NCBI GenBank assembly: GCA_002753515.1
Contig: PEAK01000009.1
Coordinates: 1-64,000, forward strand
Reading direction: 5' to 3'
Origin: Magnetococcales bacterium
GTDB taxonomy: Bacteria > Pseudomonadota > Magnetococcia > Magnetococcales > UBA8363
Length of the DNA: 64,000 nt
Notes under the pieces: generated by a model
The model's database searches: none
Told to the model about the DNA's origin: nothing
What the model saw: only the letters and a program-made list of their open reading frames with translations
Part shown: piece after piece, positions 13,371 to 39,437 of the stretch
How positions within the stretch are numbered: the first letter of the stretch is position 1
How the letters are laid out: each line of letters opens with the position of its first letter
Position numbers and translations under genes: made by a program

Positions 13371-13754
13371 TTATGCCAAACTGTTACGCAACGGACAGGT
13401 CTGAACATACAATTCAAGCAGGTCGCAATGAATAACTCTCCAGAGCAATTCCAAATCCACCTTGTAGTAGCCCTGCGATAGACGGTTTCTTAAGGCATAA
13501 AGGATAGCCCAGGGCACTTGCGGATGTTCCGCAGCAAAAACAGGATGGTAACGCCCCATGTTATGCGCCGCCTCACCGATTATTTCAAGGTTACGAATAA
13601 CGGCATCCTGCGTCTTTTCTTCCGCCAGAAAATTGGTCTCGGTCATACCCAACACGTAGCGATCAATGCGTTCAATTGCCTCAGAAATGTGTTCACTATA
13701 ATCGTGGATACGCACAGCATCGCGATGATTCTGCAAGGCAAGGGATGGTCGCAT
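13371..13754 (-). CDS. Orphan HepT-like (DUF86) protein with altered catalytic motif
   Basis: A 127-residue all-helical protein of the HepT/DUF86 family, the toxin half of MntA-HepT modules. Family features: RIHDYSEHISEAIERI, a central KTQDAVIRNLEIIGEAA helix, and the C-terminal region ALRNRLSQGYYKVD. Active HepT enzymes have the motif R-x4-H-x-Y there. Here it reads R89-x4-Q94-x-Y96, so the His is replaced by Gln. No MntA-type nucleotidyltransferase is adjacent: aceE lies upstream and a non-coding gap downstream. The protein is therefore probably a non-toxic remnant or repurposed. The ATG at 13754 follows GAGGA; the longer frame to 13805 lacks a good start. Confidence 0.8.
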   Translation of the reverse strand: MRPSLALQNHRDAVRIHDYSEHISEAIERIDRYVLGMTETNFLAEEKTQDAVIRNLEIIGEAAHNMGRYHPVFAAEHPQVPWAILYALRNRLSQGYYKVDLELLWRVIHCDLLELYVQTCPLRNSLA

Positions 13755-13821
13755 GCGTTCCTCACTTTTAGAAAATTCGGTAAAAAAACAGGTACGCGTG
13801 ATCAACGCATCATCTCAACAG

Positions 13822-20098: not shown

Positions 20099-22195
20099 TC
20101 ACCAACCCGTTTCACGGACCCACAATGCCGCCACATTTTTCCACACCCTTCCGGCCAAGGTGTCGGGTTCGCCACGTACAATGACCGTTCCAGGAATGCT
20201 CTGGGCAATGGAAGACCCCTCTCCCGCACCCGTCCGTTGAAAGCGAATGATGAAATGGGGCTGAATGGGGCGCAGGGTATCGCGCTCCATGCGTTCAGCC
20301 TCGATAGGCCCTCCGTAAAGGGAGGCCAACTTGAGATCTTCCAGTTTGGCCACCGCAAACGGATCGCTATCGACCCATTGCACCTCCATGACCGGATAAT
20401 TGGCGTGATCGGGATAAAACGCCCCCCGGGATCCCGGAATCACCTGAGACCGATCTTTTTCCGCCACATAGGCGAAGACCCGTTCGGAACCAAATTGCCG
20501 GATTTCCAACAAGGCATCCTCTTTGCCCACCCACAATCCCGGGGTCAAGCCTTCCTTGATCAGGGTCACCGTTCCCGAAACAGGTGCCCTGATGACAAGA
20601 CGTTCCCTTTGGGCCAACAAACCGGCCATTTGCACCTGGGCCGCCACCCGTTTTTGTTCGGCAACCAAGCGGTTGGCAAAAAATTTCGGGCCATAAAGCA
20701 ACAACTCTTCGCGAAAACGCACCTCTTCCAGACGACTTTGGGTTAAACGCCAATTGAGTTCCGGGGCCGCCATGGACAATAGGGGATCACCCTGTGCCAC
20801 CCGTTGCCCCCCGGTGACCTTGAGGGTTTCGATCACCCCGCCCATAGGTGGGAACACACCGGCATATACCGAACAGCGCCATACCGCCGGCATGGTGATC
20901 GCGCTTTGCCAGGGGAGGAAAAACACCATCCCCGCTAACACGCTCATAAGCATCCACAAGCGAACATGGCCCGCAGCCATTTCCCGACGATTGGAAAACC
21001 ACCAGCTCCATTCACGTACGATCGGCCCCAACAAGAACCAATACAGTTCAACCCCCATGAGAAACGCCCCCAACCATTTAAAAAACAGATGGTAAACCAA
21101 CAAGGCGATGCCGAGATAAAGAAAAAATCGATAGACCCAGGTGATTAATGCAAAACCTATCAAAAAGGAGCGCATACCCCGCGACCACCGTTCCGGTGGG
21201 GGGAGGGTGGCCCCCAATAGAACCTTGCGGATGAACCATTTGCCCATGGCAAAAGAACGTTCGTGCAAATTGGGCATATCCAAGGCGTCGGATAGCATGA
21301 AATAGCCATCAAAACGCATGAAAGGATTGATATTAAGCAACAGTGTGCCGGTCCAAACGACCGCGACCAACGAAAACAACGCCCCGCGCCATGGTCCCTC
21401 TTCCACCAGCGCCCAGGCCAGCAAAGCCCAAATAGCCAGCAAGGATTCGGCAGCCACGCCTGCCAAGGCCACCTTGAAACGATCTTTTTTTCGCGTTAAA
21501 CGCCAGGTTTCGTTGGTATCGGTGTACAGCAAGGGCCACATCACCAAGAAAGCGACACCCATGGCCGGAATGCGACACCCCAAGCGTTTGGCCACCAGGG
21601 CATGCCCCAGCTCATGCACCAATTTGGCGGACAGCAGGGTCACGAACAAGGTGGCCACCCCCGCAGGCGTTGTCATGCCGTTCAGCGACCCCACAAAAGC
21701 ATCCCATTGCCTTAAGGTGAGAAATCCCCCCAAAAGCAGGGCCAACCCGGTCACAAGCAAAAAGCTCCAGTGGGTCAGCAGCGTGACAACCGGCACCAAA
21801 GTGTGCAAGAACGCATCGGGACGCGCCAAGGGAATACGGAAAAACAGGTAATGATGCAAAAGTTTGGTAAACCAACCCACGGGTTGCATACGTTGTGCAA
21901 CATCAACGCTGGATGGTTGTGTCAACCCTTGCACGGTCAAAAAATGGACCAGAAGGATCAAGCGTTCCTCGCTGATCGTCAGGGTGGTTTCGCGATGAAC
22001 CCGGTCGAGCAAATCCTGGGGACCGGTTGCTTCGCCCCAGCGGGCGACCATTTCAAACTCAGGCCAGCCCAAGCGAAAAAATTGATTGCGCGGTTGATCC
22101 CATAACAACCAGGTCGGTGCCCCACCCGGCCCGGTCCCCCCGGGTAAGAGGCGTAGATCCTGGCGTAACAAAGGCAGATGTGGCGTCCCGGTCAC
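20099..22195 (-). CDS. M50-type membrane protease domain fused to HlyD-like adaptor
   Basis: 698 residues. A cytoplasmic N-terminal ~140 residues precedes a polytopic membrane core with the zinc motif HELGH (near residue 192, KLVHELGHALVAKRLGC) and a downstream NINPFMRFDGYFMLSD motif, as in site-2-protease-like M50 proteins. After about ten helices comes a periplasmic biotinyl/lipoyl-HlyD section (~455-690) with PPMGGVIETLKVTGGQRVAQGD, a helical hairpin and RAPVSGTVTLIKEG. The start overlaps the preceding HlyD gene by four bases (ATGA), so the products likely form one complex. Similar M50-HlyD proteins occur with efflux or secretion genes; the substrate is unknown. No TolC-like gene lies in the window. 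Confidence 0.8.
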   Translation of the reverse strand: MTGTPHLPLLRQDLRLLPGGTGPGGAPTWLLWDQPRNQFFRLGWPEFEMVARWGEATGPQDLLDRVHRETTLTISEERLILLVHFLTVQGLTQPSSVDVAQRMQPVGWFTKLLHHYLFFRIPLARPDAFLHTLVPVVTLLTHWSFLLVTGLALLLGGFLTLRQWDAFVGSLNGMTTPAGVATLFVTLLSAKLVHELGHALVAKRLGCRIPAMGVAFLVMWPLLYTDTNETWRLTRKKDRFKVALAGVAAESLLAIWALLAWALVEEGPWRGALFSLVAVVWTGTLLLNINPFMRFDGYFMLSDALDMPNLHERSFAMGKWFIRKVLLGATLPPPERWSRGMRSFLIGFALITWVYRFFLYLGIALLVYHLFFKWLGAFLMGVELYWFLLGPIVREWSWWFSNRREMAAGHVRLWMLMSVLAGMVFFLPWQSAITMPAVWRCSVYAGVFPPMGGVIETLKVTGGQRVAQGDPLLSMAAPELNWRLTQSRLEEVRFREELLLYGPKFFANRLVAEQKRVAAQVQMAGLLAQRERLVIRAPVSGTVTLIKEGLTPGLWVGKEDALLEIRQFGSERVFAYVAEKDRSQVIPGSRGAFYPDHANYPVMEVQWVDSDPFAVAKLEDLKLASLYGGPIEAERMERDTLRPIQPHFIIRFQRTGAGEGSSIAQSIPGTVIVRGEPDTLAGRVWKNVAALWVRETGW

Positions 22196-23571
22196 AACAC
22201 GGCCATTCGCCGCAAAGCCGCCAGCGGACGGTGAAACAAGGCATGAAACAGCGATACTTCAGGACCATAGATCTTGGCGGTCCCTTTCAATCCCAGGCGT
22301 GGCAAGGGATGACCGTTCGCCATCTCCGCCTTGAGTTGATAGACCAGCTTGCCTTCAGCCGAAGGGGTCGCTTCATAGGCGGCAAAACGTAACCGTCCCG
22401 CCAAGGGGCGCAAGGGATCACTATCAAGATACAGCACCACCTCCGAACCCATTGCTAACGGCATGGCCTCCGCTGCCGGCAGCTCCATGGTCATCTCGAC
22501 ATGCTCGGGGGCAGCGATCTCCAACACCTTTTCACCCAACCGTACCGGTCTACCCAGCCAAGCATACGGATCGCTAAACACCGCGATACCGTCAACGGCC
22601 GCATGGATCCAGGCTCGTTCCAACAACTCCGCAGCATAGGCAACCTTGGCAGAGGCCTCACGAACCAAATTTTTATGGGTAGCGATTTCCGCCATGCGCT
22701 CCTTGTCGGAAAAGGCGAGCTGCTCCACCTTGCGCAACTGGGTCTCAGCCAAAGCCAATTCTTCCTGGGCCAGTTGATGCCGCGATTTCAACTCGGTAAC
22801 ATCCAGGGCAAACAACAATGCCCCCTTTTTGACCGCAGCATGGGGTTCGATAAAAAATTGCGCCACCATCCCATCCATTGGGGCGGTCACCAAAGAAGGA
22901 TTGACCGCCGCCACCCGCGCAGGTGCCAATACCGATTGGCGCACATCGATTGCAAACATCGCCAGCAGGACCACCAGAACCAAAAGCAACCACAAGCCTT
23001 CCCGCAATTTTTTCAGCACCTGCCTCCCGGAATATCTCTTCCCCTGCCACAGCGCCACGGATTCACCATAACCTTGCAGCAAATGCTCCAGGAGTATGCG
23101 TTCCCCTTCTTCCCATGCCCGATCCCTGGTCAACCAAAGACCACCCAACACATCCCCTGTTCGCGGGTGTTTGAGCGGCAACCACAAGCCACTCGCATGT
23201 ATCCACGATTCCCCTTCGACAGCCAATTCCTTGGGAAGACGATCCAGTGGCAATTCTTGAATCTGGTCGAACCCCGGGGCCTGATGCACCTGGTCGATGG
23301 CCTTTTGGTACCAAACCATTTGCGGGGCATTGGCATCAAACCGGGGCACTCCGGAAACCGCCGCAATGGTCACTTTACCCGATGCCGACCAGCGCCAAAA
23401 AATGGCCTGGGCATAAAAAACCAACCTCAGGGTTTCATTGACCACCACAAAGCCCAATTGCGCCAGGCTTTCCGCTTTACGCGCCTCCTCCTGTAGCGTC
23501 AGCAGGGTTGTCAACCCCTGGACCTGGCGCTCCAGCAATTCGACTGGTGGATGATGGACGGATTGGGTCAT
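22192..23571 (-). CDS. GAF-like/HlyD membrane-fusion protein
   Basis: About 459 residues. The cytoplasmic N-terminal ~200 residues look GAF-like (GFVVVNETLRLVFYAQAIFW and a GGLWLTRDRAW strand). A single membrane helix (LWLLLVLVVLLAMFAI, ~210) leads to a periplasmic HlyD adaptor with MDGMVAQFFIEPHAAVKKG, a long coiled-coil hairpin and a beta-barrel. A sensory domain on the cytoplasmic side of an adaptor is unusual and suggests regulated export. It overlaps the M50-HlyD gene by four bases and follows apgM by 34 bases. The ATG at 23571 was chosen over the TTG at 23583; neither has a strong Shine-Dalgarno. Confidence 0.75.
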   Translation of the reverse strand: MTQSVHHPPVELLERQVQGLTTLLTLQEEARKAESLAQLGFVVVNETLRLVFYAQAIFWRWSASGKVTIAAVSGVPRFDANAPQMVWYQKAIDQVHQAPGFDQIQELPLDRLPKELAVEGESWIHASGLWLPLKHPRTGDVLGGLWLTRDRAWEEGERILLEHLLQGYGESVALWQGKRYSGRQVLKKLREGLWLLLVLVVLLAMFAIDVRQSVLAPARVAAVNPSLVTAPMDGMVAQFFIEPHAAVKKGALLFALDVTELKSRHQLAQEELALAETQLRKVEQLAFSDKERMAEIATHKNLVREASAKVAYAAELLERAWIHAAVDGIAVFSDPYAWLGRPVRLGEKVLEIAAPEHVEMTMELPAAEAMPLAMGSEVVLYLDSDPLRPLAGRLRFAAYEATPSAEGKLVYQLKAEMANGHPLPRLGLKGTAKIYGPEVSLFHALFHRPLAALRRMAVL

Positions 23572-23605
23572 GGTTGTGGCCAACGAACAAAAGAAAACAG
23601 CCCGA

Positions 23606-30071: not shown

Positions 30072-33000
30072 TTATGGTACCAGGGTGACGCCACCATTGC
30101 TGCTGCCGGTGATATTGAATTGAATAGTGGAAATCTTCCCCGGGAGATAATGGTCCAAACGTATCCCGGTTGCCGCATTGGGAACATTGGAGGAATTACC
30201 GGTGACCGCTGACCAGATACCCTGGGCGACCATCCCACTGTAGGTGGAATCACCCGAGCTTCCCAATACCCCGGTCACGACATATTTGGGTACACCTCCC
30301 CCCTGGAAAAAGGTCAGATTGCCATCTGTCTTCAGGCTCGCCAAAATTCCATCATAGGAAGAGATCAACGTATCCAGATTGATGGAAGAAATTGAGATCC
30401 CGGAAAATGAAACATCTACCTTGGAGTTGGTTCCGTCAAAGGTGATCATGTTACCCGCGATAGATGGTATCACCGTTACCAGGATATCGACGGTTGAATT
30501 ACCAACGTAAGGGGCGGCATTGACCAATACACCTGCCAAAAGGGAATTCTTCACCGAACTGGGAAGCCGCGCCAACACGGTACCCAAAGCCTGAACACGC
30601 ATTCCTACAAGAATCTTGGGGGTGTTTGTGACCGAAACATCCATTGTGTCGATAATATCCCCGACACTGGAGATACCCGCTGTGCTTCCAGTGAGTTGAT
30701 GGTTCAATTTGGATAATATCATGGTTCTGATATTATCATTGATAAAGGTAATACTCTGGGGCGTGGCACCCGCCAAACTGGTCACGGCATTCCTGAAAAA
30801 GGTATTGGCATTGGCGGATAAAGCCGCCACTGCCGCTGCATTACCCACCGTGGTGTTCTTCGCCACCACAGTCACCTGGGAAATATACGATGCTGTGGTT
30901 TTAGGATCGGACTGGGGAGTGCTTTGAACAACCCCACCGCTTAAATAACTGGTACCGGCATCCGTTACCGTATAAGTGATGGAGCGCACAGAAGCCGTGG
31001 GACTGGCGTTGCTGGCATTCTTATATTGCACCGCCCTCAAAGCCGCTTGATAAGCCGCAATAGTACCATTACCCGTGATTGTCAAAGTTCCACCCGCATA
31101 GGAACTGGTTGCGCCGGTAATATAGGTGCTGGCCGCAGCAGGAAGACTCAGGACATCATCTGCAGCGGTATAATTACCACTGATGACGACAGAAGCACCG
31201 GAGATGGTATCGCTCTCACTATCCGTGAAAACAACTCCACTATCGATCGTAGTCGCCACATTTTTATTTGGATCCAGACTCACATTATAAGTAGATGTGG
31301 CTGGCGTGGAAGTAAACACCGGTACATCATTGATGGGATAAACAGTCACCGTACTCTGCATACTCGCCAGCGCCGTAGTCGAACTGCCGGATCCACCGGA
31401 ATCGGTAACCACATATTGGACCAGGCGAGAACCGTAAGTTGGGTTGTCACTGGTATTTTGATAGGTTACCGTTCGCAATACCGTTTGATAGGTTGCCTTG
31501 GTATCGGTCCCAGTAAGAGTCAACGTCCCCGTTCCGGCACTCCAGGTGGCCGTCACATTGCCCGAGACGGTCGCCGCCAAGGCGTCCTGTCCATTGATAT
31601 AGGTAGCCGGGGTAATGGTAACCGTTGCGCCTGAAAGGGTACCATTGTCTGGATCCGTGACGGTCGCAGTGGAACTGATCACCTTTTTGTGCTTCAGATT
31701 GGTAGTGCCTATAGGTTCCTGATCCTCAACATAACTGACGCTGGAAGCGGCGTTGGCCACCGTGGGGGGATCATTGACCACAGTCACCGTCATCGAACTG
31801 GTTACCGCAGTACTGGTCGGATTGCCGCCATTCGTTGAACCCCCAACATCCGTAACCTGCCACGTCAAGGTCCGAGTCCCAGCACCCGGATCACGGCTGT
31901 TGTTGATATAGGTCACTGACCGCAGCGCCGTTTGATAATTGGCAAGGGTCGTCGTTCCAGTCAAAGTCAAAATATGAGTGGTAGTATCCCAGGTGGCAGA
32001 GATGCCGTTTTGTGTCGTCATTTGCAATGTATCAGCCGGGCCATCTCCGGAGGTCGTCGGAATCCCAGTCAGAGTGATAGTAGCCCCTTGAATATCATTA
32101 GACTCCGAATCGGTAATGGTGAGCTGGTTGCTGGGATCAATGGAGATCGCCGGCGTGATCACTCCCGGTGTGGCATCTTCGGCATAGGTCACCGCTGCGG
32201 TGGGGGCCGTCACCACCGGGGGATCGTTCACCGGAACCACCGTTACCGTTGCAGTCACCATGCTGCTGGTCGCAACCAAGGGAACGCCCGAATCCGTAAG
32301 GGTGAAACCAACCTTGCGAATCCCGCCGGTCGGGTTGTAGTTGATCAGACCCGTCACCGCATCATAATTGGCATAGGTCACCGTTGCCAACGCCGCTTTG
32401 TACTTGGCCAATGTTGCCGTGCCGGTCATCGTCAAAATGCCGGTTGTCTTGTCATAGGTTCCCGTGATGCCATCGGCATTGGCATAACCCCCGGACACAT
32501 TCGTCTGACCCGCAAACGCGAGACGATCCTCGGGATAAACCGTGACGCCATTGTTATCGGTAATCTTAACCGTTGCACCGGTTATGGTATCCCCTTCCGC
32601 ATCGGTCGCAGCAATAGCACTGTCTATGATGGTCGCTGCCGCTTTTTCGATATAGGTAATGGCACCTGTTGTCGTCAAGGCCGGGGGATCATTGACCGCC
32701 ACCACGGTCAGACTGCTGGTCACGGAAATACTGGTGGGATTGCCGCCATTCGCAACACCGCCGTTATCCGTCATCGTCCAGGTCAAGGTCCGGGTTCCGG
32801 CTCCCGGATCGCGACTGTTATTGATATAGGTCACCGATCTGAGCGCCGTTTGATAGTTGGCTATGGAGGCCGTTCCCGTCAACGTCAACGTGTGCGTAAC
32901 CGCACTCCAGGTTCCGGTAATGCCATTTTGACTGGTAAACTGCAGTGTGTCAGCCGGACCCACCCCATTGGTGGTCGGAATTCCCGACAGGACAATCGTT

Positions 33001-36000
33001 GCGCCCAATATCTGGTTCGATTCCGAATCCGTCACGGTGAACTGGCTATTGGGATCAATGCTCATAGCCGGCGTGATCACTCCCGGCGTGGCATCTTCGG
33101 TATAGGTCACCGTTGCGGTGGGTGCCGTCAAAACCGGGGGATCGTTGACCGGAACCACCGTCACCGTATCGGACACAGCCGTGCTGGTCATGGGTGCGGG
33201 CGGCGTACCCGTATCGGTAACCGTAAATTTAACCTTACGGAAACCACCTGTGACATTGTAGTTGATCAATCCAGTGGTGGCGTCATAGTTGGCATAGGTC
33301 ACCGTGGCCAATGCCGCCTGATATTGGGCTACGGTTGCCGTCCCGGTCAAAGTCAACACCCCGGTCGTCTTGCTGTAGGTCCCGGTAATACCATCCGCAT
33401 TGGAATAGGCCAGGGCAACATCGGTTTGTCCAGCAAAGGCAAGGCGGTCTTCCGGGTAGATCGTCGTCCCATCGCTGCCGGTAATCGATACCGTCGCCGA
33501 AGCAATGGAATCCCCCTCGGCATCGCTTATCGTGATGGCTGCGTCAATGACAACCGGTGCAGCCTTTTCCAGATAAGTTACGGCTCCCGTGGACACAATC
33601 ACCGGGGCATCGTTGACGGGTGTCACCTTGACCGTACTGGTCACAGCGACAGAACTGTCGGTTCCATCCGTGATCGTCGTCGCAAGAATACGATCCGTAG
33701 CCGTGGGGTTGGACCCATTATGATAAAATGTCACCGATTTAAGGGCAGCGAGATAGGCCGTTGTACTCGCTACCCCCGCCAGCGTCAATTTGCCTGCGGT
33801 TGCATCCCAGGTTCCGGTAATCTTGGTCGTATTGGTAAAGCCCAGGACATCGTAATCTTTCACATCTTTTTGATAGCCGCTGGTAATCGTCACCGTTGCC
33901 CCGGCCATGGTCACATTGTCGGGATCGGAGATGGTCAACGTCGTATCAAAAGGGGTCGCTGCATCTTTTTCAGTGTAATTTAACGTGCCACCCGCAGTCA
34001 TGAGGGGGGGATTGTTGATTGGAACAACGGTTACGGTATAGATCACCGCTGTACTGGAATCGGTTCCATCCGACACGGTGACCGTAATCTCTCGATCACC
34101 CGCCGCCGGATCATGACTGGAGGATGTATAAGTTACGGCACGCAGAGCCAGTTGATAATCTGCAACCGTAGTCATTCCCGTCAACGTCAATACACCCGTT
34201 GTCGCGTTCCAGTTTGTTTTAATTTTGGTGGTTCCGACAAAACTCAATAGATCTTTGCCTGGATCAAATCCGCTGGATAGGGCAATGGTAGCACTGGTCA
34301 GATTGGCATTATCGACATCGACAACCTGGACGGTTTTATCCAGCAAAATCGGTGTATTGGTACCCAACCCCTCGGTCTCAGTGAAAGTTGACGCCGCAGT
34401 CCCCTGGGTCACCACCGGGGGATGGTTCACGTGCGTCAGGGTAATGGTCAGGGACTTGGTGTCGGTCAAGGGGGTGTTCACAGCCCCGGAATTGCCCAGA
34501 TCATCCACTTTCACCGTTAACGTGTCGGTACCGTAAAACAAGTAGTCCCCCAGATACGTCAAACCCGCCAACGCCGTATTCAGATCGGCCAGGGTACCTG
34601 AAAAAATCATCGCGGAAGAATTATTGCTGCCGGAATTAAAGGTGAGCCCCTTGGTAGTGCCCAAGGTCAATTTCCCATGATTCACCGTCAAGGTCACCTT
34701 TTCCGTACCCGTTCCAACATCAACATCAGCAATACTTAAACCCAGAATTTTCAACGCGGTTTCCTGCAAGCCGCTTTGATCCTCCGGCATGGTGAGTACT
34801 GGGGCATCATTGACAGCCGTCACAGTGATCACCGCCGTCGCTTTGTCCGGCCCCACCTTGTTGGCAGCGGCACCCGTCGCAGCAAACACATCAAAACCAA
34901 AGACAGTGCCATCCGCAGAATTCTGGTTCAGCTTCGGAGTAAACCGCAACCCGGTCGCCCCTTCATCGACGGTAATGAAATCTCCCTCCGCGATCATCGT
35001 TTTACCATCGGTTTTGAAGAGAGTACCGTTGGTAATATTGGCAATTTTAAAATGGGTCACTTCGGCACCATCGACACTGTTGCGCCCTATCACCAATCCC
35101 GATGTGGTCTGAACATCCTCATTGGTGGTCGCAGGGGTCACAGTGGGTCGGTCGGCCACTGGATTGACCGTCACTTTAAAGCTTTTGGAAGTCGAACCAA
35201 CCGTTTTACTGCCATCGGAAACCGTCAGCGTTATGGTGGCGGATCCAAACTGACTTGCAACGGGTGCAATCGTTACTGTCCTGTTGGCATCTGTACCGGA
35301 AATCACCACATTGACAACAGGAATCAGAGTGGGATTGGATGAATCGGCCGTGACCGTCAGCGTATTGGCCGCAGTATCCAGATCCGCAACCTGAAAGGAG
35401 AGCGGACCCACTGTCGCATTTTCATTGACTGTGACATCAGCGATGGCGGTCAGGGTTGGCGCATGATTAATCGCAGTCAGCGTCATGGCGACGGTCGTTG
35501 CGGCGGGAACCGTTGTTCCGCTACCCACATTGCCCATATCGTTCAATTCGATCGCAAGCGAATCGGCCCCATAATACAGGGTGTCCCCGAGATAGTTCAG
35601 ATTGGTCAATGCTTTGGTCAAGTTGGCAAGGGTATCCAACAACACCAGCGATTTACTGGACTGACTGTGATCCGAAAAAACGGACAAGGTTCCATGTTGT
35701 ACCGTCAACGTCAGTTGGATTTTTTCCGGGCTGATCAGGGTCAAATCGGGATCGCCGATCTGAATGCCGGTGATAGTGGCCTGGGTCTCTTCCAAAACGT
35801 TGAGAGTGGAGGGGGCGGTAATAAACGGTGGCCTGTTCATTTTCTTGAGGGAAATGGTCACCTTGGCAGGTACGATGGCCACCGCCGGGGATGCATCGGG
35901 CCCGTCCTGGGCACTCACCGTCAATGTATACACCGGGAGGTTTAGATAATTCAGATTGGCGTTGGCGGCAACGGTAATCTGCCCCGTCGTTGCATCAATG

Positions 36001-39000
36001 GCAAACGCGTTGCCGGTATTACCACCCGTGATCGCGTAGGTTGGCGGATCCTTTTCAATGTCGGTCGTACTCACCGAGCCCACGACAGTCCCAACCTTCG
36101 CCGTCTCATCAACGGAGAAGTTATAGGTGGTGCTGACAAAAACAGGTGGGTAGTTGACAAATTTTACCGTAATAACGGTCGAACCACTGACAGTCAAAGG
36201 ATTTCCAGAACCTATGTTACCCATATCGTTGATTTCAACGCTTAAGGTATCACTACCGCTATAATGCAGTTCCGGGGCATAGCTCAATTGAGACATAACC
36301 TTGTTCAAGGCGCTCATTTTACCTTGGAGCGTCACGCTTTTCGACCCGGATCCCCCCGCAATGACCGTAGCACCGGTCAAATCACTCAACGTCAGCACCC
36401 CATGCAAAACCGCCAGTCTGGCCGTCATGTCCCCACCCGGGGTTTTGGACGTGATATCTGGATCCGCGATAACAATGCCCGTGATCTCCGCCTTGCCATC
36501 TTCCAACACACTCACCGGTGCGGGCATAACCACAGTGGGTGGCTCATTAACATTGTTGATCTGTATGGTAACCACCGCGTTGCCATCGGCAAGCGTCAAT
36601 GGCGGCGTATTATTATCGGTTACCGACACCTCCAGGGTATAGGTTGACAAGGTTTCAAAATCGAGTTTGGCATCCTTGTTCACGGTGATCTGCCCCGTGG
36701 CGGCATCGATGGCAAACGTATTACCCACATTACCCTTGGCAATGGCATAGGTCAGTTTGGGGGCATGCGGGGCAGAAGCCTGTACGGCCCCAACGACTGT
36801 CACAGCGGGACTGTTTTCATCGACCGAGAAGGTCAGGTTGGTATTGGTCAGTACCGGGGGGAAATTGACCGGTTTGATAGCGATTGTAGCACTTCCAGAT
36901 GCCGTTAACGACCCCCCGCTCCCCTGAAATCCCAGATCATCGACCGACACGCTCAGGGTATCGGTGCCCCGATAATATTGATTGGGATTGTAAACGATTT
37001 TCCCCAGAACGTTGTTCAAGGAAACAACCGTCCCATTGATGGTCAAACTCTTGCTACCCGAAGCCCCAGCCGTTACCGTCACCCCCGCACTGTCGGTCAG
37101 ATTCAGCACACCATTGTTGACTTCCAGCTTGACCGATTCCACCCCTTTGTCCCCACCCGTCAGCAAGCTGTCGGGATCGGCAACCACAACACCCGCAAGC
37201 GGCAATTGGCCATTCTCATTGACGCTGAAGGAACCAGGGACCGTAACGGTCGGCGGTTTGTTGATCTTGCTTAAATTGATGGTAATTGTAGCCGTAACAT
37301 AGGTGATCTTTTGCGTAAAGGTATCGGCCACATTGTCGGTGACCGTCGCTGTCAAGGTGTACGATGAGGCCTTGCCATAGTCCAACGCGGCAACCGTTGT
37401 AATGGTTCCAGTCGCCGAATCCACGGTGAATACATCACTGGGGGTCAGAGTATACGCCAGAACTTTGGAAGTGTCCGTCGTCGTTGCCACCAATTTCCCG
37501 ACTATGGTTTGCGGTGGAACATCATCATTGACAGCAAATGTCTGCGCCGTCATGACTGGAGGGACATAAAAGGTGGCTGTCTTAAGAACCGGCCTGTTAT
37601 TTGAATTCGTATTGGAAGAAGAGGCCGGCGTGCTTGCTGTGGGAGCCGGAGTCGCCGCAGCCGATTGAGACGCATTATTAAAAACTGAATTGGGATCGGA
37701 AGCAGCGGTTGGCGTTGTCTTCGCCCCGGTATCAACCGGTTTGGCGGAAGTATCCGATTTGGCAGAAGTATCCGGTTTGGCGGAAGTATCCGATTTGACG
37801 GAAGTATCCGATTTGGTGGAAGTATCCCCGGCAACCGCTGTATCACCTTTTCCGGTACCGCCAGTGGTTGCAGCCGTATCCTTGGAACCTCCCGCTGCAT
37901 CGCTACCACCCGTCTTGGCACCGGTCTCAGTACCTACCGGCTTGGTTGTGTCACCCGGGGTTGGCGGCTTGCCACCACTCTCCGTCAAGGGTGCGGAGCC
38001 AGCCTTGACGGCATTTCCCAACTGCTTAGCCACGTCATAATCCTGAATACCAATGGCTTTGGCCTGGTCTTTGATCTCCTGCTTCACTTCCCTGGCTGTT
38101 TTTTCGAGGATCTCAGACAAACCTTTGCCTTCTTTCACCTCCTTTGACACTTCTTTGGAAAAATCTTCCACTTTGCTGGCGGTTTTTTCGAGGGCAGCCG
38201 CCGCAGCCGTGTCATCCACCTTGGCATTGGCAACAGCTTCCGGACTGACAGATTTACTCTCCAACGCCGCTTTCTTGTCGGTCAACTCGGCAAGCTTCTC
38301 CTTGTCTCCAGACGTTTCCGCCGCTTTCATCTCTTCCTTGATCTGGTCCAGCTGTTTCTCCGTCTCGATGGCCTTGACGATATCCTCCTTGGTTTTCTCC
38401 TGCAATTTTTCTTCAGCCGCCGCCACTAATTTGTCCAAGGCTTCCGGTGACCTATCCAAAATCTTTTTGACCTCTTCAACACTGGAAGCCGCCCCTTTGG
38501 CCACCAAAGACTTGGCGAGATTGTCCGCCAAGGCTTGTTTCGCCGCCGCCGGAAGCCTTTGCACAGCAGTGCTGGCATAAGCATTTGCCAGCTTGGCCGG
38601 CGGAGCCGAAAAAACAACAGGCGGTGTTTTCTTGGAACCGCTTAACATCTGGTCTCTTTTGACCACCTCGGGTGCCTTGCTCAGATCAGCAGCCTCAGCA
38701 TTGGCAATCAGGGCAGTCAAAAAAAGAATCTCGCCAGAGGAAGAACTGACCTTTTTGTCAATTTCCTCCATCCACACCAGCACCTCGTCCCTGAGAGAAA
38801 TGACCTCGATCCCCTGATCGTCACCCAAACCGTTCAGTTGAATAAACCCTTCCGTACCACGAACCCCCATGGTCGCGACCGGGGTCACCATGTGAAATGG
38901 TTTGCTCTTGAGCTGGCCCAGGCGTCCCGAAGTGAATTTGGCCGATCCCTTGTTCAACTTCACCTCGCCCTTGTTGCCATCCTCTTCATTGACCGTATTA

Positions 39001-39437
39001 TCCGGTCGCACCTTGAAGGCGTATTTCTGCACCAGGAATTCGCTGTCCTCACCCAGTGCAATGACGGCATCATCTTTCATTTTGAGGATCAACCGCGCCT
39101 TGGAGCCGGTCACGATGCGATCACCTTCAAATACGGGTGAACCTTCGTCCAGAACCCGTTTTTCCTTGTCTATTTCGGCGAAAGCCAAGCCTTTCAACTG
39201 GGTAACCGAAGCCACCGCCTCCCGTTGCGGCGCTGTTTCCGTTGCTTTGGTGGTTTTGGACTCTTTTTCTTCACCAGGGGATGGCTTGGCCCGTTGCGAA
39301 AGCTTGTCGCGATCCAGGGCAATACCCTTGTGTTCCACAGACTTTTGCGATCCAAGCAAAAGGAACACGGCAACAGCGGCAATGCCGATGATGATCAGAA
39401 AAGCTACAAACCATTTATTTTGGAACAAGTTTCGCAT
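30072..39437 (-). CDS. Giant membrane-anchored FecR/cadherin-like repeat protein
   Basis: 3121 residues. The N-terminus has an uncleaved-looking membrane helix (FVAFLIIIGIAAVAVFLLLG, ~9-28). A FecR domain follows (~70-230; SPVFEGDRIVTGSKARL, KSKPFHMVTPVATMGVRGTE). Residues ~330-480 are charged coiled coil. Residues ~490-625 are low-complexity with TSAKSDTSAKPD repeats. The remaining ~2300 residues are cadherin/VCBS-like beta domains linked by VNDPP or NRPP motifs (for example VTVVPVNDPPVLTAP, FAIDAATGQITV). Two ~306-residue blocks are near copies. The last ~270 residues are unique and carry no RTX (GGxGxD) or LPXTG signal. Such proteins are surface adhesins or envelope-spanning structural proteins; FecR plus an inner-membrane anchor is unusual for a secreted adhesin. 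A secretin-SPOR gene lies upstream on the same strand. Confidence 0.88.
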   Translation of the reverse strand: MRNLFQNKWFVAFLIIIGIAAVAVFLLLGSQKSVEHKGIALDRDKLSQRAKPSPGEEKESKTTKATETAPQREAVASVTQLKGLAFAEIDKEKRVLDEGSPVFEGDRIVTGSKARLILKMKDDAVIALGEDSEFLVQKYAFKVRPDNTVNEEDGNKGEVKLNKGSAKFTSGRLGQLKSKPFHMVTPVATMGVRGTEGFIQLNGLGDDQGIEVISLRDEVLVWMEEIDKKVSSSSGEILFLTALIANAEAADLSKAPEVVKRDQMLSGSKKTPPVVFSAPPAKLANAYASTAVQRLPAAAKQALADNLAKSLVAKGAASSVEEVKKILDRSPEALDKLVAAAEEKLQEKTKEDIVKAIETEKQLDQIKEEMKAAETSGDKEKLAELTDKKAALESKSVSPEAVANAKVDDTAAAAALEKTASKVEDFSKEVSKEVKEGKGLSEILEKTAREVKQEIKDQAKAIGIQDYDVAKQLGNAVKAGSAPLTESGGKPPTPGDTTKPVGTETGAKTGGSDAAGGSKDTAATTGGTGKGDTAVAGDTSTKSDTSVKSDTSAKPDTSAKSDTSAKPVDTGAKTTPTAASDPNSVFNNASQSAAATPAPTASTPASSSNTNSNNRPVLKTATFYVPPVMTAQTFAVNDDVPPQTIVGKLVATTTDTSKVLAYTLTPSDVFTVDSATGTITTVAALDYGKASSYTLTATVTDNVADTFTQKITYVTATITINLSKINKPPTVTVPGSFSVNENGQLPLAGVVVADPDSLLTGGDKGVESVKLEVNNGVLNLTDSAGVTVTAGASGSKSLTINGTVVSLNNVLGKIVYNPNQYYRGTDTLSVSVDDLGFQGSGGSLTASGSATIAIKPVNFPPVLTNTNLTFSVDENSPAVTVVGAVQASAPHAPKLTYAIAKGNVGNTFAIDAATGQITVNKDAKLDFETLSTYTLEVSVTDNNTPPLTLADGNAVVTIQINNVNEPPTVVMPAPVSVLEDGKAEITGIVIADPDITSKTPGGDMTARLAVLHGVLTLSDLTGATVIAGGSGSKSVTLQGKMSALNKVMSQLSYAPELHYSGSDTLSVEINDMGNIGSGNPLTVSGSTVITVKFVNYPPVFVSTTYNFSVDETAKVGTVVGSVSTTDIEKDPPTYAITGGNTGNAFAIDATTGQITVAANANLNYLNLPVYTLTVSAQDGPDASPAVAIVPAKVTISLKKMNRPPFITAPSTLNVLEETQATITGIQIGDPDLTLISPEKIQLTLTVQHGTLSVFSDHSQSSKSLVLLDTLANLTKALTNLNYLGDTLYYGADSLAIELNDMGNVGSGTTVPAATTVAMTLTAINHAPTLTAIADVTVNENATVGPLSFQVADLDTAANTLTVTADSSNPTLIPVVNVVISGTDANRTVTIAPVASQFGSATITLTVSDGSKTVGSTSKSFKVTVNPVADRPTVTPATTNEDVQTTSGLVIGRNSVDGAEVTHFKIANITNGTLFKTDGKTMIAEGDFITVDEGATGLRFTPKLNQNSADGTVFGFDVFAATGAAANKVGPDKATAVITVTAVNDAPVLTMPEDQSGLQETALKILGLSIADVDVGTGTEKVTLTVNHGKLTLGTTKGLTFNSGSNNSSAMIFSGTLADLNTALAGLTYLGDYLFYGTDTLTVKVDDLGNSGAVNTPLTDTKSLTITLTHVNHPPVVTQGTAASTFTETEGLGTNTPILLDKTVQVVDVDNANLTSATIALSSGFDPGKDLLSFVGTTKIKTNWNATTGVLTLTGMTTVADYQLALRAVTYTSSSHDPAAGDREITVTVSDGTDSSTAVIYTVTVVPINNPPLMTAGGTLNYTEKDAATPFDTTLTISDPDNVTMAGATVTITSGYQKDVKDYDVLGFTNTTKITGTWDATAGKLTLAGVASTTAYLAALKSVTFYHNGSNPTATDRILATTITDGTDSSVAVTSTVKVTPVNDAPVIVSTGAVTYLEKAAPVVIDAAITISDAEGDSIASATVSITGSDGTTIYPEDRLAFAGQTDVALAYSNADGITGTYSKTTGVLTLTGTATVAQYQAALATVTYANYDATTGLINYNVTGGFRKVKFTVTDTGTPPAPMTSTAVSDTVTVVPVNDPPVLTAPTATVTYTEDATPGVITPAMSIDPNSQFTVTDSESNQILGATIVLSGIPTTNGVGPADTLQFTSQNGITGTWSAVTHTLTLTGTASIANYQTALRSVTYINNSRDPGAGTRTLTWTMTDNGGVANGGNPTSISVTSSLTVVAVNDPPALTTTGAITYIEKAAATIIDSAIAATDAEGDTITGATVKITDNNGVTVYPEDRLAFAGQTNVSGGYANADGITGTYDKTTGILTMTGTATLAKYKAALATVTYANYDAVTGLINYNPTGGIRKVGFTLTDSGVPLVATSSMVTATVTVVPVNDPPVVTAPTAAVTYAEDATPGVITPAISIDPSNQLTITDSESNDIQGATITLTGIPTTSGDGPADTLQMTTQNGISATWDTTTHILTLTGTTTLANYQTALRSVTYINNSRDPGAGTRTLTWQVTDVGGSTNGGNPTSTAVTSSMTVTVVNDPPTVANAASSVSYVEDQEPIGTTNLKHKKVISSTATVTDPDNGTLSGATVTITPATYINGQDALAATVSGNVTATWSAGTGTLTLTGTDTKATYQTVLRTVTYQNTSDNPTYGSRLVQYVVTDSGGSGSSTTALASMQSTVTVYPINDVPVFTSTPATSTYNVSLDPNKNVATTIDSGVVFTDSESDTISGASVVISGNYTAADDVLSLPAAASTYITGATSSYAGGTLTITGNGTIAAYQAALRAVQYKNASNASPTASVRSITYTVTDAGTSYLSGGVVQSTPQSDPKTTASYISQVTVVAKNTTVGNAAAVAALSANANTFFRNAVTSLAGATPQSITFINDNIRTMILSKLNHQLTGSTAGISSVGDIIDTMDVSVTNTPKILVGMRVQALGTVLARLPSSVKNSLLAGVLVNAAPYVGNSTVDILVTVIPSIAGNMITFDGTNSKVDVSFSGISISSINLDTLISSYDGILASLKTDGNLTFFQGGGVPKYVVTGVLGSSGDSTYSGMVAQGIWSAVTGNSSNVPNAATGIRLDHYLPGKISTIQFNITGSSNGGVTLVP
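31769..33610 (-). repeat. Two tandem ~920-bp repeats inside the giant protein gene
   Basis: Two adjacent units of about 919-921 bases (boundaries near 31769, 32688 and 33609) encode near-copies of a ~306-residue block. Each carries YPEDRLAFAGQT, NADGITGTY, VTYANYDA and then DPGAGTRTLTW. The reading frame is kept. Such repeats expand and contract by recombination, so the true copy number may vary between strains or be miscounted in assembly. Confidence 0.8.

Follow-up and report, generated by a model that had tools for sequence, protein, structure and literature searches.

The window considered here is a stretch of 64,000 nucleotides from a Magnetococcales bacterium (assembly GCA_002753515.1, contig PEAK01000009.1, positions 1 to 64,000), and the subject of this study is a pair of genes within it, both on the minus strand. 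The upstream gene encodes a protein that joins a GAF-like domain to a periplasmic adaptor of the HlyD type (GAF-HlyD below), and the downstream gene one that joins an M50-type protease core to another such adaptor (M50-HlyD). A preliminary description of this DNA had placed two overlapping reading frames at 20099–23571, and translation of the window bears this out, both frames being open there. The overlap, taken at that time to read ATGA, is in the sequence a 4-base GTGA (22195..22192). The features of the two proteins are collected in Table 1. They include an N-terminal domain of M50-HlyD that resembles PqqD and the recognition elements (RREs) of ribosomally synthesized and post-translationally modified peptides (RiPPs).

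Table 1. Features of the gene pair in the window, with the grounds on which each was assigned.
Feature	Coordinates	Strand	Extent	Grounds
GAF-HlyD protein	22192..23571	-	459 aa from ATG; 463 aa from TTG at 23583	open frame; Pfam HlyD_3, HlyD_D23; AlphaFold2 model
GAF-fold domain	23122..23538	-	model residues about 12-150	VIA-align Z about 15 to GAF domains 3ci6, 3hcy, 3cit
Single membrane helix	22939..22995	-	about residues 193-211	hydrophobic run in translation and model helix; position by eye
HlyD/MacA-type periplasmic adaptor of GAF-HlyD	22252..22947	-	residues 209-440	Pfam, fold comparison
GTGA overlap: TGA stop of GAF-HlyD and GTG start of M50-HlyD	22192..22195	-		sequence
M50-HlyD protein	20099..22195	-	698 aa from GTG	open frame; Pfam M50 and HlyD; model
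PqqD-like (RRE-type) N-terminal domain, b-b-b-a-a-a	21917..22156	-	residues 14-93	model secondary structure; hhalign
HELGH zinc-protease motif	21602..21616	-	residues 194-198	H194, E195, H198 invariant in 62/62
NINPFMRFDG, second M50 motif	21305..21334	-	residues 288-297	N288, P291, R294, F295, D296, G297 invariant in 62/62
HlyD/MacA-type adaptor of M50-HlyD	20159..20914	-	residues 428-679	Pfam, fold comparison

The AlphaFold2 model of GAF-HlyD, made from 51 sequences, has a mean predicted local distance difference test score (pLDDT) of 93.3 and a predicted template modeling score (pTM) of 0.63. Its residues from about 12 to 181 match known GAF structures with Z of about 14 to 15 (some 140 to 165 residues aligned), and those from about 209 to 440 match adaptors of the MacA/MexA type by fold comparison. 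The membrane helix overlaps the end of a long helix of the model, residues 155–207. Pfam finds only the adaptor in the window protein, with no match to its GAF model, and that model is matched by 11 of the 51 members of the family at E ≤ 1, the best at 2.7e-4. The architecture given to this protein in the preliminary description, a GAF-like domain, one helix and an adaptor, has held up, insofar as the model recovers both the GAF and the adaptor fold.

The hallmarks of the M50 family are the HExxH motif and a second motif of the NPxxxxDG type that carries the third zinc ligand, both within membrane helices. Pfam M50 matches the window M50-HlyD with 29.8 bits (cut-off 27.2), alongside a match to HlyD, and a profile match to 3b4r, an M50-type protease of known structure, has an E-value of 1.9e-4. 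The M50 motifs lie in the part of the model that contains helices (mean pLDDT 90.8 over the protein), and the motif residues, those of the HELGH core that had been described in front of the adaptor among them, are invariant in all 62 aligned proteins. (The choice of rows for alignments A5 and A6 skipped 17 loci, mostly close relatives, and of the rows chosen, three of 53 [L096, L100, L107] and one of 62 [L100] were left out.) That the window protein has intact M50 active-site motifs is supported by these comparisons; proteolysis itself is a predicted activity.

The N-terminal domain of M50-HlyD had been overlooked. Compared by hhalign with 14 PqqD proteins it gives a probability of 60%, as against at most 0.8% for eight control segments, and compared with the same region of the other branch of M50-HlyD proteins (described below; a set that includes the sequence from contig C90 of the window's genome twice and excludes L158) it gives 82%. 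Among the relatives, ten long frames of that other branch exceed the Pfam cut-off for PqqD, four of which (G018, G026, G030, G129) are confirmed M50-HlyD frames. No PqqD structure appears in the fold-comparison lists for M50-HlyD, an absence that excludes nothing, since a single domain of the protein fills those lists. Because some of the measures of similarity are weak, "PqqD-like" is the fair term.

To see how the two genes stand elsewhere, a collection of genome contigs was scanned with the four M50-HlyD paralogues of the window's own genome, which gave at least 571 confirmed relatives, and the best 80 of these were studied. The stretches around them reach at most 10 kb on each side, and counts by position use only those loci with enough room. 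The usual gene order among these best 80 is a giant repeat protein, a TolC-type gene, a small HlyD, GAF-HlyD and M50-HlyD. The gene immediately upstream of M50-HlyD is GAF-HlyD in 70 of 75 loci, with the small third HlyD upstream of GAF-HlyD in 54 of 67 and the TolC-type gene upstream of the small HlyD in 35 of 52. The giant, chosen by composition and place, is found as a repeat-rich frame upstream in 39 of the 80 loci and downstream in ten (Pseudomonas and others). At E ≤ 1e-3, a SecA profile made from the protein on C90 has no match in the window or in any of the 80 loci. The adjacency in 70 of 75 relatives indicates that the arrangement is not due to chance, and the suggestion that the two genes form a unit is thereby upheld. 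The search for the pair in company with outer-membrane or substrate genes, which the preliminary description had proposed as a check, turned up TolC in 35 of 52 loci and, as candidate substrates, giants in many. This larger locus, of which the window copy is an orphan, had escaped notice.

The giants share features at both ends. A pattern of the LEPRxMFDGA type occurs in 22 of the 1078 frames of 300 amino acids or more in the 80 loci, always in a repeat-rich frame and no further than 143 residues from its start; it occurs in none of the frames of a reversed set and in none of 20 shuffled sets. Where the start of a repeat-rich frame is visible, the pattern is present in 18 of 21 cases. The three giants that were scanned with their starts all have DUF4347 next after the start region. 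At the other end, a typical tail reads GKPSFTxQLxxxG. When each giant with a visible end was searched with a tail model built without that protein and its close relatives, the best match ended within the last 60 amino acids in 37 of 43; inner segments put through the same procedure, in four sets, gave two to five of 43. Twelve selected fragments went into A3 and 17 into A4. The start motif is related to the LEPR-XLL domain of NCBIfam (NF012209, cut-off 17), which scores 26 bits in the giant on C90 of the window's genome, 13.6 in the giant on C1, 14.9 in L036 and 13.3 in L105, with no match in the giants of C30 and C99; another scan gave 11.8 for L105 and 13.5 for L088 and no match for L058.

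The association between exporter and giant was also examined across 398 genomes of Pseudomonadota, 48 from the window's order and 350 from outside it. DUF4347 is present in 95 of the 398, and M50-HlyD at E ≤ 1e-20 in 91, of which 76 are of the window type (E below 1e-100): 42 of the 48 genomes in the order and 34 of the 350 outside. Outside the order, 29 genomes have both the window-type exporter and DUF4347, five the exporter only, 22 DUF4347 only and 294 neither (Fisher 1.5e-23, uncorrected for phylogeny). Inside the order, 41 have both, one has only the exporter and three only DUF4347, these three being genomes that are 57–76% complete. DUF4347 and M50-HlyD lie near each other on the same contig in 17 of 21 co-positive outside genomes in which both places are known, a count made by hand that covers 21 of the 29. 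One of the five outside genomes with the exporter only (G221) does have a LEPR giant, to judge from its complete locus: TolC, small HlyD, GAF-HlyD and M50-HlyD, with a LEPR frame of 3,246 amino acids about 4 kb away.

The curated LEPR-8K profile was run on 47 chosen genomes: the window's own, 15 with a weaker M50-HlyD hit (13 outside the order, two inside), 16 of the 34 outside genomes with a window-type hit, and 15 with neither. The weaker-hit group has LEPR-8K above the cut-off in 12 of 15, one of them (G290) in a short frame only, and in eight of the 12 the LEPR frame shares a contig with the M50 gene, separated from it by about 1.3–2.7 kb. SecA adjoins the M50 gene in eight of the 11 weaker-hit loci that were read. 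The three without it (G331, G010, G186) are among the eight genomes with the giant on the contig; SecA is present in the other five (G159, G286, G019, G144, G167). The window-type group matches LEPR-8K at E ≤ 1 in 14 of 16, 13 of them in a long frame, and 11 of those 13 lie no more than 7 kb from the M50 gene; a chance-like match in G356 (0.81, in a frame of 159 amino acids) was left out of the list of distances. Genomes with neither type of hit gave weak matches in four of 15, in frames of at most 567 amino acids, one of them above the cut-off (in a frame of 178 amino acids). Weak matches to this 24-position profile are common: seven of 14 well-known genomes used as controls match at E ≤ 1, one above the cut-off. 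The family appears to have two branches: SecA usually accompanies the first, whose LEPR-XLL giants are often longer than 8,000 amino acids, and the second is free of SecA, linked to TolC and has giants of the LEPRxMFDGA type.

The window's genome (4.33 Mb, 134 contigs) contains members of both kinds. Three further window-type pairs, on contigs C69, C93 and C106, share 35–37% identity with the window pair. All three have a third HlyD gene upstream, and on C69 the end of a giant is found upstream as well. Directly downstream of M50-HlyD on C106 (L024:653-3034, minus strand) lie two tandem proteins that by eye resemble RelA/SpoT synthetases. C90 carries a locus linked to SecA (SecA_DEAD, 307 bits) with its own LEPR-XLL frame of 7,672 amino acids, and its M50-HlyD is 28% identical to that of the window. 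The C90 stretch (L029:231-9042) encodes GAF-HlyD, M50-HlyD, SecA and a small HlyD, together with a two-partner-type (ShlB/FhaC) outer-membrane protein, which has POTRA domains and a Pfam ShlB score of 81.7 bits; no TolC-type match was found in that stretch. A frame of 19,427 amino acids occupies about 54,600–112,900 of C115 (minus strand; L030) and has a LEPR-8K start of 30.1 bits; its end apparently adjoins a GAF-HlyD gene of 656 amino acids, and a similarity search finds no M50-HlyD on that contig.

Three giants with DUF4347 are unlinked to any pair: one of 4,871 amino acids on C1 (MMMALEPRVLFDGALATT), one of 4,741 on C30 (LPLEQRLMFEGVG) and one of 2,249 on C99 (IALEPRLMFDAG). A similarity search with the two window proteins gave no relative on C1 or C99; on C30 the sole relative is of the M50 type, some 36 kb from the giant. 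Searching this genome with the tail model finds the C30 giant at 2.2e-4, with weaker matches in short frames on C126 (0.017), C45 (0.19) and C118 (0.92). The idea that the C99 giant is the front end of the one on C69 was discarded, the C99 frame being complete. The end of the C99 protein (L127:3462-10211) resembles by eye a caspase-like peptidase domain rather than the usual tail.

The pair in the window stands apart from all of these. Its neighbors are a phosphoglycerate-mutase-type gene upstream and, on the other strand, phoU downstream. Beside it no third adaptor, TolC or giant was seen, nor, by eye, an ABC (ATP-binding cassette) gene; a scan found no TolC-type gene in the window. The nearest relatives among the named matches listed are from Magnetococcales bacteria (L032–L034, 66–68% identity). 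An orthologue of the window M50-HlyD is found in seven of the eight genomes of the genus, the window's included, at 60–71% identity, the eighth genome being 75% complete, and the GAF-HlyD partner adjoins the M50 gene in all six of the others. With the pair found in this form in seven of eight genomes, its orphan state seems to be of long standing and the unit to have been preserved. The gene phoU was considered as a functional partner: besides the window, L142, L144 and L145 have it close to the pair. L143 lacks it there, and the stretches of L141 and L146 stop at the pair on the side in question. Upstream of the orphan pair in L142–L146, five of the six genus orthologues, is a divergently transcribed protein of about 210–250 amino acids that is not found next to the pair in the window.

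Elsewhere in the window, a protein of 3,121 amino acids (30072..39437, minus strand) was tried as a possible substrate and rejected, as by eye it has no LEPR start, an N-terminal membrane helix and no tail motif. It contains, according to Pfam, a FecR domain and cadherin repeats. At 13371..13805 (minus strand) is a HepT-like protein (PF01934, 78.8 bits), the toxin type of HepT-MntA pairs.

Judging by the sequence comparisons above, the pair is probably the inner-membrane half of a leader-recognizing export module for giant repeat-built surface proteins, the window copy acting in trans. The link between module and giants is observed in gene order and co-occurrence. The part of the preliminary description that called the pair an export device stands, given the adjacency in 70 of 75 loci, the M50 motifs kept in 62 of 62 proteins and the linked HlyD and TolC genes; the part that left its substrate blank can be made more specific, the family being linked to giant proteins with LEPR and DUF4347. 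That the pair might always accompany a characterised exporter was not what the loci showed: the neighbors are conserved, and no account of their function was found. The words "protease-controlled" and "sensor", applied earlier to the pair, are still to be read as inferred roles.

The module might work as follows. RiPP recognition elements bind leader peptides, and by analogy the PqqD-like domain may hold the N-terminal LEPR leader of a giant at the cytoplasmic side. The M50 core could then clip the leader or help the chain across the membrane, as may be the case with EpeP. A review (PMC10885120) reports that in a lasso peptide the leader is fully proteolysed only if an RRE-type element is present, and it credits EpeP, the M50 protease of an epipeptide, with both cleaving and exporting its product, even though production was not abolished when EpeP was deleted. 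The three adaptors would form a periplasmic duct to TolC, the GAF domain may gate the device or pair (dimerize) its subunits, and the giant would come to sit outside the cell, serving as a surface adhesin or coat. Energy could come from SecA/SecY, from the proton motive force or from folding outside the cell. The window copy would either have parted from a linked third adaptor, TolC and giant or have lacked them from the outset. Beside the three paralogous pairs, it might serve giants encoded at other places in its genome, those on C1, C30 and C99 being the most plausible. This last is the least certain step of the proposal, because the three paralogous pairs could serve those giants instead. 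A bolder form of the proposal is that these parts make up a distinct Gram-negative secretion route, in which the LEPR leader is read by the PqqD-like domain, M50-HlyD replaces the ABC transporter, the GAF adaptor gates, the tail is a second signal, and the window pair is a trans orphan of the SecA-free one of two branches. I give that form somewhat less than even chances.

A number of observations weigh against the proposal. Outside the order, five of the 34 exporter genomes lack DUF4347 and 22 of the 51 DUF4347 genomes lack a window-type exporter, and the statistics of co-occurrence ignore phylogeny. Five of the 75 relatives with room do not have GAF-HlyD directly upstream (in L049 it is about 870 bases off). 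Three of the 21 repeat-rich frames with a visible start have no LEPR pattern, and one of these, L043, shows an apparent Sec signal; of the 37 tail matches, 31 score above zero and six below. Within the window's genome, the C99 giant lacks the tail, that on C1 has one that looks alike by eye yet gains no score, and the unlinked giants may instead be served by any of the three paralogous pairs. No third adaptor, TolC or repeat giant was found in the stretches read around the six genus orthologues, with the qualification that three of those stretches (L141, L142, L146) extend no more than about 1 kb beyond the pair in one direction. As for the PqqD-like domain, the other branch compared with PqqD proteins reaches only 8.4% by hhalign, the Pfam PqqD model is matched by two of the 62 window-type members (best E-value 0.13), and the C90 copy falls just below its cut-off (22.8 vs. 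23.4). No energy source for export was found, nor, in the literature searched, any experiment on cleavage, leader binding or export.

Other explanations of the pair need to be considered. It may be regulatory, the GAF domain sensing a cytoplasmic signal, the M50 core cleaving, for example, an anti-sigma factor, the adaptors serving for contacts, and the orphan having left the export pathway. Site-2 proteases (S2P), to which such a core would be compared, are best known from signaling, the GAF fold is present, and the bare surroundings of the window pair, without visible third adaptor, TolC or giant, would suit such a role. I judge it unlikely all the same, given that related pairs are found together with giants, TolC and a third adaptor, that both adaptor parts keep their full folds, that no sigma or anti-sigma gene was seen by eye beside the window pair, and that the curated protease models closest to it are of enzymes of peptide maturation. 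Those bare surroundings would equally be expected of a functionless, decayed remnant; both frames are intact, however, the M50 motifs are complete and the orthologous pair persists in seven of eight genus genomes with the M50 protein at 60–71% identity, which makes decay very improbable.

The closeness to peptide-maturation enzymes raises the further idea that the pair matures and exports a small ribosomal peptide, like the M50 proteases of daptides or epipeptides. NCBIfam daptide_HExxH matches the window M50-HlyD at E = 3e-43, over model positions 26–352 of 379, and YydH/LiaK at 1.7e-8; all 62 window-type members match the daptide metalloprotease model and 58 of the 62 the YydH/LiaK model, and a PqqD-like domain would fit as well. 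The scores are nonetheless far under the curated cut-offs (148.4 vs. 300 and 34.4 vs. 225), the linked partners are giants, and no maturase gene was seen by eye near the window pair, short peptide genes not having been searched for, so that I give the idea little credence. A more conventional reading, in which the pair belongs to a standard type I secretion system of the ABC kind or to a multidrug efflux system and the ABC or resistance-nodulation-division (RND) pump is encoded elsewhere, is a somewhat better candidate, if still an unlikely one. The folds of the adaptors are those of HlyD and MacA, TolC stands upstream in 35 of 52 loci, and by motif search three of the 80 loci have an ABC frame of 500 amino acids or more and 15 some ABC-ATPase-like frame. 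By the same search 77 of the 80, within at most 10 kb on each side, have no ABC frame of that length, the linked giants have N-terminal and C-terminal motifs of their own, and ordinary HlyD-type adaptors, to my knowledge, carry neither an M50 nor a GAF domain. An export module for giants therefore remains the explanation I prefer.

The LEPR motif at the start of the giants, their common tail and the PqqD-like domain of M50-HlyD lead to testable predictions as to which protein is exported, which of its ends is read and by which domain. With window-type M50 genes in 76 of 398 genomes of Pseudomonadota, such a route could explain giant surface proteins in many bacteria without an ABC transporter at the same locus. 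The SecA-containing sister module was published in 2015, and no substrate has been named for it. In the open-licence literature I recognized no paper that links LEPR-XLL or DUF4347 to M50-HlyD, and a term search alone of PMC3482391, PMC8277102 and PMC10868602 returned nothing on such a link in the passages reached; the passage of PMC10868602 on the LEPR-XLL domain states no export function for it.

Among known systems, type I secretion of the LapA or SiiE kind has in common with the window-type module an HlyD adaptor, a giant repeat-built surface protein and, to judge from 35 of the 52 loci with room though not from the window itself, a TolC-type channel. It has, however, a dedicated ABC transporter, and by motif search an ABC transporter is near in only three of the 80 window-type loci, whereas the window-type module has an M50 protease and a GAF protein, and most of its giants carry the LEPR motif and share a C-terminal tail. 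The M50 metalloproteases of epipeptides and daptides (YydH/EpeP; NF058609, NF041824) are of the same M50 type as the window protein, which differs in its fused HlyD adaptor, its scores below the cut-offs and proposed substrates of thousands of residues. The N-terminal motif of the giants is a variant of LEPR-XLL, reading LEPRxMFDGA in window-type giants and MEPRYLLSG in the SecA-linked giant of C90.

The closest relative, and one that the preliminary description had missed, is the module of Kamneva, Poudel and Ward (2015; PMC4452313), the sole account of such a module that I recognized in the open-licence literature. Its passages on this SecA_DEAD, type I-like module describe, as in the window type, GAF-HlyD and M50-HlyD side by side, a further HlyD, sometimes a gene of the OEP/TolC type, and no ABC transporter. 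There it was proposed that the M50 protein could act as the pore through the membrane, so that no ABC transporter would be needed, and a regulatory role was suggested for the GAF protein; the broader biological role of the module was called completely unknown, and in those passages the authors name neither a substrate nor a leader-binding domain. Their module has a secondary SecA, for which the 80 window-type loci and the window give no profile match. What is new relative to that account is the branch free of SecA and linked to TolC, the C-terminal tail shared by window-type giants and the PqqD-like domain of the window type, to which may be added, as probable, LEPR giants as the substrates of both branches.

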